From: Phormidium tenue FACHB-886
GTDB taxonomy: Bacteria; Cyanobacteriota; Cyanobacteriia; Elainellales; Elainellaceae
DNA: 50,581 nucleotides
NCBI RefSeq assembly: GCF_014764505.1
Contig: NZ_JACXWX010000033.1
Coordinates: 1-50,581, forward strand
Reading direction: 5' to 3'
Shown: positions 2,545-8,971 of the stretch, piece after piece
How positions within the stretch are numbered: the first letter of the stretch is position 1
How the letters are laid out: each line of letters starts with the position of its first letter
Notes under the pieces: generated by a model
Told to the model about the DNA's origin: nothing
Databases searched by the model: none
The model's input: the letters and a program-made list of their open reading frames with translations, nothing else
Position numbers and translations under genes: made by a program

Positions 2545-5500
2545 CTAGCGTCTTCCTGCGATCGCCCCCAGAGCGAGCAGCGTCGAGTGTTGCATTGAAG
2601 TGAGTCCGGTCACCCCCGTAATATTCATTCCTTCATAAGGACGATCGCTTTTGATTTGCTTGATGCATTTCCCTGTTTCGATATCCCAGAAGCGAATCGT
2701 GCGATCGCCGCTGCTGCTAGCTAATACGGGCTTTAAGATAGACAGATCAGCATCAGGAAGAACGGTAAACGTGAGGGTATAGATCCATTTGGTATGCCCT
2801 TTTAATACGTTCAGGCACTCTCCTGTAGTAGCATCCCAAACCTTGATCTGCTGATCCATGCTGGCACTGACCAATCGCTGACCATCCGGACTATAAACAA
2901 TTGCCACAATCGGGCTAGAATGCGCTTCTATTTGCCGCAGCACCTTTCCAGTTTGCACATCCCAAAGCTGAATGCAACCCGTTTCACGATTACTTGCCAG
3001 GGTTTTGCTATCGGGGCTGAAAGCGATCGCCCCGCCCCAGTCAAAGGTGGCAGAAAAATGCCATTCAGTATGATATCGGAAAGTTTGAACACAGTCTCCA
3101 AGGGCGACATTCCATAGCCGAACCGTTTGATCTACCCCATAACTTGCTAAAAATTGCCCATCCGGACTGTAGATCACAGCCACCACCGGACTAGTGTGAT
3201 TCAACACGGTAAGACACTGCCCTGTTGCCACATCCCACAGCCGGATCGTATAGTCTACGCTACAGGTCGCCAGCGCTTCACCGTCCGGGCTATAGTTCAC
3301 TGACCAGACAAACCCCTCATGCCCCTGCATAATCCGCAGGCATTCTCCAGTTGCCACATCCCACAGACGCACTACCCCATCCACACCAGAGGTTGCCACC
3401 GTTTGATCGTCCGGGCTAAAGGCAACCGAGCGCACCCAGACCCAGTGCCCTTTCAGCACCTTCAAGCATTGCTCTGTCTGCACATCCCAAAGCTTTGCTG
3501 TTTGTTCGTCACCACTGCTCACCAACGTGCGACCGTCAGAACTGAAGGCGATCGCCCAGATGCTATCGCTGAATCCTCTCCAGGTTTTAAGACACTGTCC
3601 ACTATCGAGGTTCCACACTTTCAGGGTTTGCCCTTCATCGCTGCTAATTAAAGTTTGCCCCTTGGCAGTAAACAAAACGACTCGAACGCCATACTCATGC
3701 CCATGCAGCGTTTTAATGAGCTGCCCTGTCTGCAGATTCCACACCTTGATCGTGTGGTCGGCACTGCAGCTTACAACAGTTTGTCCATCTGGGCTGCAGT
3801 CCACCCACCAAACCCAATCATTATGCGATTGAGTCTGCAAACACTCCCCGGTCTGCAGATGCCACCATTTCACCTGATTATCCAACCCGCCGCTAACCAA
3901 AATTTGCCCATCTGGGCTGAAACTCATGAAGAGCAGCGGCATTCGTTGATGTCCGGGCAAGGTTTTGAAGCAAGCTCTGGTTTGCAAATTCCAGAGTTTA
4001 ATCGTGCCATTGTTGCAGGCTGCCGCCAGAATTTTTCCATCCGGACTAAAGCGAATGGTGGTCGTCCAATCAAGCTGCTGATTCAAGGGAACGACTTCAT
4101 CGGTATCGAGATTCCAGACTTTAATCGTGCCGTCTGTGAGGGCAATCGTTCCGCCATCTGGACTCACCGATATTGCCCAAACTGTACCATCCTGGTTGTG
4201 CAGCTTGCGGCAGCATTGCCCCGTTTGCACATCCCAAAGCTTCAGAAATTGGTCGTCGCCCCCACTGGCGATCGTTTGGCTATCGGGCAGAAAGATGAGC
4301 GATCGCACCGAACCAGCATGAGCTTCCCAACTCCTTAGCAGTTGCCCATCGCTCAGTTGCCACAAACAAATCTCGCCCTGCGTATCGGCAGTAGCAAACC
4401 ATTCACCGTTGGGACTGGACGCCATCGAATAAATATGGTTAAAGCTGTTAGTAAAAGTTGTTTTAGCTAGATTGGCACCTGAGAAATTAGTTTGGCGTAA
4501 GTAAATGTTTTTGAAATCTGCCTGCCAAATCACCAGATGAGAAAAATCATATCCGCTCCAGTCCTGCTTGAATTGACAAAGAAGATTAGCAGTATTACCA
4601 CCTGCATATCCAACTTCAGCAGCAGATTGATATCGCAGTGAGTTAAGAATCGTTAGCAATAGGATTTCTGCAGATTCTGAGCTGCCGCAGCGGCGCAGCA
4701 GCTGACGGACGATCGGTTTTAAAATCAGGTTGACTTGCGTCTCTTTCACATAGTCTTTGGACTGCGCTTTCATCAGCGCATAGTATTTCAAAGCAGATAA
4801 TTCTGATATCTTCTGATTGACATTTCCTGACTGCTGCCATTCACCCATTTCGACACACACCTGCTTAATCAGGCGATAAGTCATATATTCCATTAAAACG
4901 GGCTGAAGCGTAAACGAATCAGTGCTTCTCTCAATTAGAGAGCGACGCTGGAGAGCCTCCAGAGCTTCGAGAAATTCTGTTGATAAGAAGGGGTAGAGCA
5001 GATCTGCCTGGAGATCGGCGATCGCTACTGGTTCGCGGTTGACCGCCAACCAGTATAGAACCTGCTGCTCCAGTGCTGACAAACGATTGAATTGCTGATC
5101 GAGCAAATCTTGAATATCACCAAAAATAACCGCACCTTGGGATAAGAACTTAGAAATATTTCCGGCGAACAAATCGTGAATCGTGGTTGAAACAATTTTC
5201 AACGCTAGCGGGTTACCGGCATAGGTGTGAATCAAAATTTGCCAGTCCTGCTCTGAACCCCAAAAGCTGCCCTTTGCCTGCACAATTTCCCGTCCGTCTG
5301 AAAGGGACAAACCTTTGAGTTGGAGCGATCGCACAGGTAGCGTTTCCCCTTCTAGCGCAGCAACTTCTTTCGGCTTCTCTCGGCTGGTGAGAATCAAACA
5401 GCTATTGTGTTGCAGTTCACTCACTTTTTTGAAGAGTTCACCATACGGCTCAAATCCTGGTTGGTAATAACCCACGCGGCTCATGCTGAAATCATCGTTT

Positions 5501-6186
5501 GGATTCGCCAGGATGGTTTCTACGTTGTCCAATACCAGTAAACAGCGGTGATGCTTAAAGATATTCAGGAGGGTTGCAATCTGCCGTTGAAGATCGGTTG
5601 ACGAGCCCAATTCCTGCTGAGCAGGTAAATCAATCAAACTGTTAAGCAGTGCATTCAAAGACGGAGCATTATACAGCGATCGCCAAATCACTATCTCGAA
5701 CTGGGTTTGAAGCTGCTCTGCTAGTTTGATGGATAACGCTGTCTTGCCAGTCCCTCCAATGCCCAAAATGGCGATGAGACGACAGCGATCCTGAATCCAT
5801 TGATTTAAGGTGGCTAATTCTTGAGTGCGGCCATGAAACACGGAAACATCAATCGCTTCACCCCAATCTTGATGAGCAGGAGCTAACGCAATTGGCGCTG
5901 TTTTAACTTGGGTTGAGAGTGTCTTTTGGTTTTCCGGCTTTGTATGACGCTTTAAAATTGAGCGAAAGTTGTTTTTCGTAACTTTTACCCCTAGCGTCTC
6001 TGACAGCATCTTCCAGAGTTGAAAGCCGACCAGTTTTACATAATCAGCGTCATAGCCACTCGTTTCAGCAATTTCTGGATAGGTTTTTTGCTCCCAAGAC
6101 TCCCGCAGAATCATCTCCTGCAATTCGTTGCCAATCGCTTTGCCAAGAATAGTTTCAACGATCGCTAAGGCTTCTTCACCCGTCAT
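2545..6186 (-). CDS. STAND NTPase: vMAP-type HTH, NB-ARC, two WD40 propellers
   Basis: A 1213-residue signalling protein. Residues 1-82 resemble the helical N-terminal domain common on cyanobacterial NB-ARC proteins (vMAP HTH). An NB-ARC ATPase follows, with Walker [10 protein letters not shown] at 142-150 and Walker [10 protein letters not shown] near 215, then a winged-helix section to about 450. A short pentapeptide-like patch ([17 protein letters not shown]) precedes 14 WD40 blades, enough for two seven-bladed propellers. STAND proteins are ligand-gated oligomerising ATPases; in bacteria many act in antiviral defence or stress signalling. No effector domain such as a protease, TIR or nuclease is fused, so output is probably through a partner. 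It is divergent from psbA with 323 bp between. The start lacks a strong Shine-Dalgarno. Confidence 0.9.
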
Positions 6187-6509
6187 GATTGCAAGATGAG
6201 TGGGTAGTAATGACTAGAAAGTGAGGTGCGATTGCTAATTAATTGTCAATTAGAAGCGATCGCTGTGCCCCTGCTAAATAGTAAAGTTCTGTATCAAATT
6301 GCTCATCTAAATCCTACCCTAAAGGCTTTAATCTGAGAGCGTTGCGCCTAAATTGCTTAATGTTATGTAACATTTTATGTTGAATTGCTAACCTGAACTG
6401 ATAACTTTAACTAACTTTTCATAACTGCGATCGCTGTCTGTCTTTTTTACGATGCAATTAGCTGCTGTGAAAGACAGCGGCGAAGCGTAAATAGGAATGA
6501 TGCAACTCT
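6187..6509. promoter_or_regulatory. Divergent STAND/psbA upstream region
   Basis: The 323-bp gap contains a TGTTA-TG-TAACA dyad at 6360-6371 and, in the presumed psbA leader, an 8-bp stem (CGCTGTCT 6432-6439 with AGACAGCG 6472-6479) that encloses a T-run. psbA leaders often control mRNA stability. No clear -35/-10 pair could be fixed. Confidence 0.35.
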
Positions 6510-7607
6510 ATGACAACAACTCTACGAAAACGCGAAAGCGCCAGCATTTGGGAGCAGTTTTGCAACTGGATTACCAGCATTGAGAATCGCCTTTATGTAG
6601 GCTGGTTTGGTGTGCTGATGATCCCAACCCTACTGGCTGCCACCCTCTGTTTTATCATTGCCTTCATTGCTGCGCCTCCCGTAGATATTGACGGCATCCG
6701 TGAACCTGTTGCAGGTTCTCTCCTGTATGGCAACAACATCATCTCCGGCGCAGTTGTCCCGTCTTCTAATGCGATCGGTCTGCACTTTTACCCTATTTGG
6801 GAAGCTGCTTCTTTGGATGAATGGCTGTACAACGGCGGCCCTTACCAACTGGTTGTATTCCACTTTCTGATCGGCATATTCGCCTACATGGGTCGGGAGT
6901 GGGAGCTGTCATACCGGCTGGGGATGCGCCCCTGGATCTGTGTAGCTTATTCTGCCCCAGTTGCGGCAGCTACGGCTGTATTTTTAATCTACCCGATCGG
7001 TCAAGGTTCGTTCTCAGATGGGATGCCGTTAGGCATTTCTGGTACGTTCAACTTCATGTTTGTGTTTCAGGCAGAACATAATATTTTGATGCATCCATTT
7101 CACATGCTGGGTGTGGTAGGGGTGTTTGGTGGGGCATTGTTCAGCGCTATGCACGGGTCTCTCGTGACTTCATCGTTAGTGCGGGAGACGACCGAAATCG
7201 AGTCTCAGAACTGCGGCTACAAGTTTGGGCAAGAGGAAGAGACTTACAACATTGTGGCGGCTCACGGGTATTTTGGTCGCTTAGTTGGGCGCACGAACGA
7301 GATTATTTTGGGAACCAATGCAAACAGCCGCACCCTGCATTTTCTCTTGGGCGCTTGGCCTGTCGTGGGAATTTGGTTCACCGCTCTGGGCATCAGCACA
7401 ATGGCGTTCAACCTAAATGGATTTAACTTTAATCAGTCGGTACTCGATTCTCAAGGACGTGTGGTCAACACTTGGGCAGATATGCTGAACCGAGCCAATT
7501 TGGGGATGGAAGTGATGCATGAGCGTAATGCTCACAATTTCCCATTGGACTTGGCGGCAGGCGAAGCAACTCCGGTTGCGCTCAAAGCACCTGCTCTTTT
7601 GAGCTAA
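6510..7607 (+). CDS. psbA: Photosystem II D1 protein, variant with replaced QB loop
   Basis: D1 reaction-centre subunit, 365 residues against the usual 360. Donor-side residues are all present: Tyr161, Asp170, Glu189, His190, His198, and the C-terminal His-Glu, His, Asp and Ala ligands ([13 protein letters not shown], shifted by five). The processing site LDLA/AGE is intact, and Glu130 is the high-light-type residue. His215 and His252 remain. Between Leu258 and the NSRTLHF motif, the usual FQYASFN, which includes QB-binding Ser264 and Phe265, is replaced by [12 protein letters not shown] (260-271). The reading frame is clean and no shifted frame restores the usual sequence. Tyr235 is Cys. Rogue D1 and ChlF lose Mn ligands, so this is a different kind of variant. 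An AGGAA lies 12 bases before the ATG. Confidence 0.97.
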
Positions 7608-7710: not shown

Positions 7711-8364
7711 TCAGCGAACGCTGACTCGGTAAACGCAACGTCGATCGCCTGCTAAGATGTGTTCTGTTCGTTCGATCGTTACGTCCTCACCCAAAGCGGC
7801 TTGAAAGATTTCTAGCTCCATGCGACATAAGCCTGTACAGGCAGTAGCGACTACACAAATCGGGCAATGTTTTTCAAAGAGCAGAAACGTACCATCGGCT
7901 TGCGCTTGTACTTCTGCCATGTAGCCTTCCTCGGTTCGCTGTCCTGCTAACGCTTCTAGCCGTTGCTGCAATGGACTTTGACAAGGTACGATCGCCTGAT
8001 ATGCTTGAATCTGTTCGCGGGTTCTCACTTCCAGCAGCCGATCCAGCCCTGCTTCACCGAATGCTTCTTTCATGGAGTCGAGCAAACTCAAGGTTAACTC
8101 GGCATAGCGATCGGGAAAGAGGCGATCGGCAGCAGAAGTTAACTGCCACAGCTTAGCAGGTCGTCCCATGGGACGCGCTTCTTTGTGGTACGTAACCAGT
8201 CCTTCTTCCTGCAGCGCATAAAGATGCTGCCGTACTGCCATTGCTGTAATGCCAAAGCGGCACGCAAGAGCTTCGGCATCTAGAGGCCCATCTTGCTTGA
8301 GCAATTTGACGATCGCTCGACGGGTGCGAACACTAGCAGGCTGGGTTTGGCTGTTGGTCTTCAT
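7711..8364 (-). CDS. SufR-like winged-helix regulator with cysteine cluster
   Basis: About 217 residues, matching SufR in length. The N-terminal DeoR/ArsR-type HTH (RTRRAIVKLLKQDGPLDAE, then RFGITAMAVRQHLYALQEEGLV) is followed by the wing (RPMGRPAKLWQLT) and a C-terminal sensor domain. The cysteines Cys167, Cys170, Cys176, Cys180 (CPIC, then CTGLC) and Cys210 are suited to binding an Fe-S cluster or metal. SufR represses the suf Fe-S assembly operon in cyanobacteria, but no suf genes are here, so this may be a paralogue. ATG at 8364 is preferred over the upstream TTG at 8397. It is convergent with psbA. Confidence 0.8.
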   Translation of the reverse strand: MKTNSQTQPASVRTRRAIVKLLKQDGPLDAEALACRFGITAMAVRQHLYALQEEGLVTYHKEARPMGRPAKLWQLTSAADRLFPDRYAELTLSLLDSMKEAFGEAGLDRLLEVRTREQIQAYQAIVPCQSPLQQRLEALAGQRTEEGYMAEVQAQADGTFLLFEKHCPICVVATACTGLCRMELEIFQAALGEDVTIERTEHILAGDRRCVYRVSVR

Positions 8365-8971
8365 AACCACAAGTGAAAGAAAAACCTTATAGGTCAACTA
8401 AAATCTCTATGACATTTTAAAGACTTTTCTTTATTAATGCCAAGAGCCTGGTAATTCAGAAGGAGAATTAGATATATAAACCTTTTTTGCGCAACCCTCC
8501 GTAGTACAGAAGTAAAGGAATACAGAACGGAGGCAATCGTTCGTTCCAACACCATTAGGTATCTATTGGTTGAACACCGACTTATTGAATACTGCTTTAC
8601 CGGATACTGCTCTGCTGCTCTACTGAATACGGATACGTTGTCTATTGTAGGTGCCCCTGACATAAATAATTTGTTTGGTTGAAGTGCCTTAAGCTTTCTC
8701 GATCTACTATCTTTGCAACAGTACTAGTTTTTGTTCTTGAAAGAATTTTTTGACCTGAATATGAAGATTTATACGCCTTGTTGCAATTCGTTCCCTAGTC
8801 TGTTGATTTAGCGTTAATAGTTGATATAGCCTTTTCAAGCAGAAACGATCCCCAGGCATCTACTCCTCAAGCTTGCAAATTCAGGAGAATGCGAATTACG
8901 ATCGCTTAGTTCGTAGGCAATTATTAGCGACTAGAGTTTCTACTGTTATACAGACAAAAGAGAACCCCAGT
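8365..8971. other. Intergenic region without a supported gene
   Basis: A 607-bp AT-rich divergent gap before the aldo/keto reductase gene. Short degenerate repeats (GAATACTGCT, GGATACTGCT, GAATACGGAT) occur at 8586-8635. The only long frame, on the minus strand, resembles no protein. Confidence 0.4.

Follow-up and report, generated by a model that had tools for sequence, protein, structure and literature searches.

A psbA gene with a replaced QB loop

The window, by which we mean the whole stretch of 50,581 nucleotides analysed, carries a psbA gene whose D1 product has a replaced loop at the QB site, with regulator-like genes on either side (Table 1). The protein scored 760 bits against the NCBIfam psbA equivalog model TIGR01151 (cut-off 596), which places it in the psbA family, and a Photo_RC domain was found in it. 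Aligned with the best-matching solved D1 proteins, which read FQYASFN, it has 12 residues standing for 7 at codons 260–271 (+5). Together with the clean open reading frame, this alignment bears out the original prediction of a D1 with a replaced, five-residue-longer loop. A second full-length psbA in the same genome (C1:565238) keeps FQYASFN. Truncated psbA pieces lie at the ends of contigs C112, C185, C200, C241, C197, and C44 of this genome (G000), so the genome probably has more psbA copies than the assembly resolves. AlphaFold2 models reached a mean pLDDT of 35.7 (D1s only) and 45.7 (D1s plus D2s), with low values over the loop both times.

Table 1. Features at the loop psbA locus of the window
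Feature	Position	Strand	Remarks
STAND protein, 1213 aa, divergent; candidate regulator	2545..6186	-	NB-ARC/NACHT plus WD40 (Pfam)
Three TAACT units, 10-bp spacing, upstream of psbA	6402..6427	+	TAACTTTTnnTAACTG at 6412-6427, once in genome
psbA, loop-variant D1, 365 aa	6510..7607	+	ATG start, no internal stop
Replaced QB loop, residues 260-271	7287..7322	+	In place of FQYASFN (260-266)
SufR-like HTH regulator, convergent	7711..8397	-	128.5 bits, below SufR cut-off of 178.8

The loop recurs in a family of D1 proteins (see below), 23 of them full length. Tyr161, Asp170, Glu189, His190, His332, Glu333, His337, Asp342, and Ala344 are present in all 23, as are His215, His272, His252, and Phe255. 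In contrast, Ser264 and Phe265 occur in none of the 23 loop D1s, compared with 65 of 65 G4 D1s, among which the QB loop is invariant. The predicted loss of these two residues alongside intact Mn ligands is thus a property of the full-length family. Equivalents in a shifted register were looked for by alignment, and none is conserved: the aligned Ser264 column reads V, T, or A (16, 6, and 1 of 23), and the Phe265 column reads N, D, Q, R, A, Y, or T. Within the loop, Gly260, Arg261, Asn263, Glu264, Leu267, Gly268, and Ala271 are invariant across the 23 proteins. Beyond the loop, the 23 loop D1s are markedly different from the 65 G4 D1s at positions 19, 209 (S to A), 230, 259 (I to V), and 276 (G to A) and in the C-terminal extension. 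Glu130, which we take to be the high-light form, is found in 23 of 23 loop D1s and 39 of 65 G4 D1s, and Phe211 is replaced by Ile in 8 of the 23.

Excerpts of two papers describe hydrogen bonds from Ser264 and Phe265 to QB (PMC4030317, PMC6170454), and passages of a third present the S264/F265 region as structurally well conserved across D1 groups, with no mention in those passages of an insertion there (PMC12096807). We did not find the loop described in the literature searched (titles, abstracts, and loop strings), and earlier D1-phylogeny alignments may contain it.

The loop psbA genes are under purifying selection. With all pairs of the 23 genes pooled, pN/pS was 0.133 in the loop core (residues 260–268) and 0.495 in the C-terminal extension, compared with flank values of 0.081 and 0.068, at a pS of about 0.7; standard D1s were represented in the pN/pS analysis by the first 40 rows of the G4 codon alignment. 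Loop D1s are 86.3–99.5% identical to one another.

Distribution and descent of the loop D1 family

The family comprises 24 distinct loci in 23 genomes, with 23 full-length copies and one contig-end fragment (L123). This total combines 21 loci from a class sample with 17 from a large scan, 14 of the 17 being among the 21. In the class sample, a 35-aa loop query found the loop in 20 of 388 sampled Cyanobacteriia genomes, the window genome included, corresponding to 21 loci, 12 of 160 genera, and four family codes; identity over this query was 80–97% in the 19 other genomes. Within the order, 6 of 36 genomes matched a 53-aa query spanning the loop, and a phylum sample of 386 genomes yielded two carriers, both known already. 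The large scan searched the DNA of 84,980 genomes with a gapped pattern allowing 1–30 extra nucleotides between HGYFGR and AWP. Among the 38 stretches recovered, 17 were loop D1s and 21 were chance or frameshifted matches. All 17 in-frame D1 insertions are +15 nt and carry this loop, and no other D1 insertion was found in the 84,980 genomes within the limits of these anchors. The scan is incomplete, given that the anchors miss G009 (which reads FSRL) and that G000, G015, G205, G211, and G332 are likewise unlisted.

Carriers include Leptolyngbya sp. PCC 7375, PCC 6406, and Heron Island J, as well as Nodosilinea, Adonisia turfae, Gloeocapsopsis crepidinum, and Coleofasciculus and Chroococcidiopsidaceae MAGs. 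A standard FQYASFN copy was read alongside the loop D1 in 19 of 20 carrier genomes; in G022 we obtained only a standard-length fragment match. An origin from mobile elements was considered and rejected, as none of the 482 phage and 15 plasmid records with a match reached 80% identity to the loop query. All 40 viral D1s translated, from 80 loci retrieved, read FQYASFN. The exact loop pattern was absent from viral contigs, and the gapped pattern matched five viral stretches, none of which is the loop. Three viral psbA genes (L100, L101, and L102) have one extra nucleotide between HGYFGR and AWP, which may be a sequencing error.

We placed the loop D1s in a D1 tree that had 122 rows after removal of 11 redundant loci, duplicate rows, and all proteins shorter than 300 aa; X letters were removed from L174, and L229 could not be mapped to codons. 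The groups are called G1–G4 here. With the loop columns left out, the loop rows grouped within G4, away from the G1, G2, and G3-like rows and from D1INT. The forks enclosing the loop rows in G4 have SH-aLRT values of 88 and 84 and are not starred. The free quick tree needs five label changes for the loop, of which starred branches force two. When the loop rows were held together, the likelihood was 23.2 higher and a single origin was not rejected (p-AU 0.73), so we do not claim a repeated origin. The scatter of loop rows in the free tree is due in part to gene conversion. Tracts shared with the standard psbA of the same genome were found in 2 of 20 loop genes, in the N-terminal part: L121 is 99% identical in DNA to its standard copy over residues 46–180, and L120 is 100% identical over residues 46–135. 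Bins beyond residue 180 are 79–93% identical in both, and the loop region is spared.

The window protein is about 84–90% identical to standard G4 D1, with which it shares the donor-side and iron ligands. The standard protein differs in reading FQYASFN with Ser264 and Phe265, where the loop D1 has 12 residues and its own regulator. Assignment to rogue (sentinel) D1 (G2) or to ChlF (G1) was rejected, as the loop D1 branches with neither and keeps its C-terminal ligands, whereas G2 and G1 rows have changed C-termini, long branches, and no such loop. Those rows also lack FQYASFN, the G2 loop region reading LIPGTAMRNSR and similar. Because G2 proteins lack this motif as well, what sets the loop D1 apart is the +5 replacement together with complete donor-side ligands. 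The contrast with rogue D1 drawn in the original prediction stands for the full donor-side ligand set; loss of Ser264 alone makes no distinction. The proposed distinct acceptor-side variant is real, with donor-side ligands in 23 of 23, and is not unique, being one of a family of 24 loci.

D1INT, reportedly from Sheridan et al. 2020, resembles the loop D1 in being a G4-related isoform of unknown function with acceptor-side changes. It is described in excerpts of PMC9740203 and PMC12096807, the former giving it Trp126 and Trp260. We rejected this identity for the window D1, which has Tyr126 and Gly260 where both Trp residues are needed. The D1INT-like D1 read here (L160; Trp126, Trp260) has no insertion, and its genome, G071, also holds a loop D1 (L118).

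Regulatory genes and cis elements at the loop psbA loci

A divergent TetR-type gene lies upstream of psbA at 19 of the 23 full loop loci, the window being one of the four without it. The TetR start is roughly 0.2–0.4 kb from psbA, except at L116, where the distance is about 1.4 kb with small ORFs between. Pfam identified TetR_N in the three TetR proteins scanned, and the nearest curated family was RutR, a weak match (74 bits against a cut-off of 368). As a control, we chose 20 standard psbA genes from the same genomes, and their surroundings gave no TetR match.

The TetR–psbA intergenic regions contain palindromes of the form AACTAACnnGTTAGTT, which we counted at up to 3 mismatches of 14. At least one site is present in 19 of 19 regions, and two or three in 18; at up to 3 mismatches there were none at the 20 standard-psbA controls and none in the window. 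TTGACA lies between sites O1 and O2 in all 18 two-site loci, and O2 follows the expected -10. When 20 genomes were searched in full for AACTAACnnGTTAGTT with no more than one mismatch, every site lay at a loop-psbA locus (16 loci in 15 genomes), and the reversed control pattern gave 5 sites in 4 of the 20. Genomes G000, G022, G035, G182, and G217 had no site within one mismatch anywhere. Since operator sites lie only at the loop-psbA locus, a predicted local switch fits better than a global regulon. Among 32 genomes, TetRs at least 55% identical to the query were found only at loop-psbA loci, plus one TAG-interrupted copy. This ortholog, with an in-frame TAG (L264, 4075–4548; G283:C24), sits in a cassette-like gene order with no psbA in 9 kb. 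It seems that the regulator decays where its target is lost.

At the four remaining loci (the window, L105, L078, and L079), a STAND/WD40 gene takes the place of TetR. The AACTAACnnGTTAGTT palindromes are missing there, except for one 3-mismatch site in L079, and two or three TAAC[TC] units occur at 10–11 bp. Two such units in register were found at none of the 19 TetR-type loci and none of the 20 controls. The longer pattern TAACTTTTnnTAACTG occurs exactly once per genome in the four STAND-type genomes, at loop psbA; among ten other genomes, two have one match elsewhere, and the reversed control gave 2 matches in the 14. The TAACT direct repeats resemble RpaB/HLR1 sites, an identity that we do not claim. 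PADLOC returned one match for the STAND protein, HEAT-ARM_XIII, which we judged uninformative, and a PDB search with its first 100 residues gave no match.

Other neighbours are common only to subsets of the loci, at most 7 of 24. We rejected a tie between the SufR-like gene and psbA, as a relative was seen in one other locus only (L106), where it does not adjoin psbA. By eye, no efflux gene or biosynthetic cluster was evident around the loop loci. A gene named by eye as rbcL-like lies near the cassette in L112, L113, L114, L117, and L077, several of them Nodosilinea-type.

Paralogous TetRs with 38–47% identity were read at 11 places. An FAD monooxygenase is divergent to the paralog at six of these (L253–L256, L258, and L259), with FAD_binding_3 confirmed in the five scanned; at L253 the gene is split in two ORFs. 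A Rieske protein takes this position at three more (L257, L260, and L261), and the other two places lie in the window genome and run into contig ends. The recurrence of this arrangement across L253–L261 marks a cyanobacterial TetR subfamily found time and again in divergent orientation to an FAD monooxygenase or a Rieske protein. Because the paralogs adjoin such enzymes, the evidence favours a small aromatic or quinone-like compound as the putative ligand of the cassette TetR.

Proposed function and alternative explanations

The D1 encoded at these loci is conserved and of G4 type; it retains the water-oxidation ligands checked, has a longer, conserved QB loop, and comes with its own cis elements. 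In our best reading, the loop D1 would be made on induction and would give a PSII that still oxidises water a QB site insensitive to inhibitors. The TetR would hold psbA repressed until it binds a small compound, probably an aromatic or quinone-like one. Loop D1 would then be made, enter PSII, and oxidise water normally, and electrons would reach plastoquinone via a reshaped QB pocket that offers no Ser264 or Phe265 to competing inhibitors. The invariant Asn263 and Glu264 of the longer loop may provide new hydrogen bonds or a proton path. Such a system would amount to target-replacement-like resistance for a photosystem, in which the poison induces an insensitive spare copy of its target. A spare loop D1 with its own predicted switch suggests a stand-by photosystem that could be turned on when the normal one is poisoned.

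We give nearly even weight to the proposal, drawn from sequence, of a switchable D1 isoform dedicated to chemical stress on the acceptor side. A version that we hold more tentatively is that it is a natural chemical-warfare resistance module, in which a ligand-sensing repressor or STAND sensor would induce the spare D1 and natural PSII inhibitors would be excluded. In portions of PMC6170454, S264K is triazine-resistant and slows plastoquinone reduction, at a cost in electron transfer. Given this resistance, insensitivity of the loop D1 to triazines and DCMU is plausible; given the slowed reduction, the loop D1 could also be a poor QB reducer, which we count against a switchable D1. Several other observations count against it as well. 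Over the whole loop (259–271) pN/pS was 0.202, above the flanks. No operator was found at the stringent setting in G182 and G217, and L118 has one operator and a TetR that shares only 47% identity with the query TetR. The window itself is among the loci that lack TetR, and at L116 the TetR stands about 1.4 kb off. Among the standard psbA controls, L252 also has a STAND gene, a distant relative at about 25% identity, which lies 162 bp upstream in the same orientation. Finally, the oxygenase neighbours belong to TetR paralogs of 40–47% identity and not to the cassette TetRs.

An artefact or decaying pseudogene might be suspected in a draft assembly of 255 contigs with other psbA pieces at contig ends. 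Recurrence of the same loop in other assemblies refutes this explanation, which we regard as vanishingly improbable: across the 24 loci in 23 genomes, synonymous change is near saturation and the residues are conserved, in keeping with the earlier judgement that a sequencing or assembly error is unlikely. D1 isoforms are classically acclimation paralogs, and a possible, though less probable, alternative is that the loop D1 is a condition-specific acclimation isoform, comparable to low-oxygen or far-red D1, whose loop retunes QB redox potential or exchange. Such a state could be high light, redox stress, or anoxia; TetR would bind an internal metabolite, and resistance to herbicides would be a by-product. 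The presence of Glu130 in every full loop D1, the weak likeness of the TetR to RutR, and the rbcL-like gene near several Nodosilinea-type cassettes are all consistent with acclimation. Against it stand the locus-only operator sites, which fit a local switch better, the oxygenases adjoining paralogous TetRs, and the conservation of the S264/F265 region across D1 groups described in passages of PMC12096807.

Sentinel or rogue D1 has been proposed as a protective or signalling centre. A loop that blocks plastoquinone binding on purpose could produce such a QB-disabled PSII, as Ser264 and Phe265, which bind the distal QB oxygen, are absent and G2 rogue D1s also lack FQYASFN; excerpts of PMC6170454 add that Ser264 replacement impairs electron transfer. 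We consider this explanation unlikely, given that each of the 23 full loop D1s has Tyr161, His190, Ala344, and the Mn ligands checked, whereas G2 and G1 C-termini are changed, that His215, His252, Phe255, and His272 stay, and that the loop core is conserved rather than decayed. Water-oxidation ligands would serve little purpose in a D1 whose QB site is dead, and a D1 that no longer oxidised water would probably have lost some of them. The simplest interpretation is a PSII that is active, has a rebuilt QB pocket, and is made on demand.

The proposed inducible, inhibitor-insensitive D1 has counterparts elsewhere. Resistance of the mecA and mupA type is inducible target replacement and, like the loop cassette, sets a spare drug-target copy beside a ligand-sensing regulator; here, however, the target is a photosystem subunit and the resistance is proposed from sequence. 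Cassettes of the TetR/tetA type, with a divergent regulator and target, likewise place the two head-to-head with palindromes over the promoter, but in the loop cassette the target is a core reaction-centre protein. Herbicide-resistant D1 point mutants such as S264K likewise lose the Ser264 contact; these are single substitutions, whereas the loop D1 has a replaced, selected loop with its own predicted switch.

The QB loop is the target of major herbicides. If our reading is true, target-replacement resistance has been applied to a photosystem, and the QB site is workable without Ser264 and Phe265. A natural, selected loop replacement with full water-oxidation ligands would test ideas of QB binding and protonation, the loop D1 could supply a natural herbicide-insensitive D1, and the regulator's ligand should show which compounds threaten PSII in nature. 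As a minor observation from the same survey, single in-frame TAG codons were read in three psbA frames (G283:C46, G283:C230, and G057:C1:213177).
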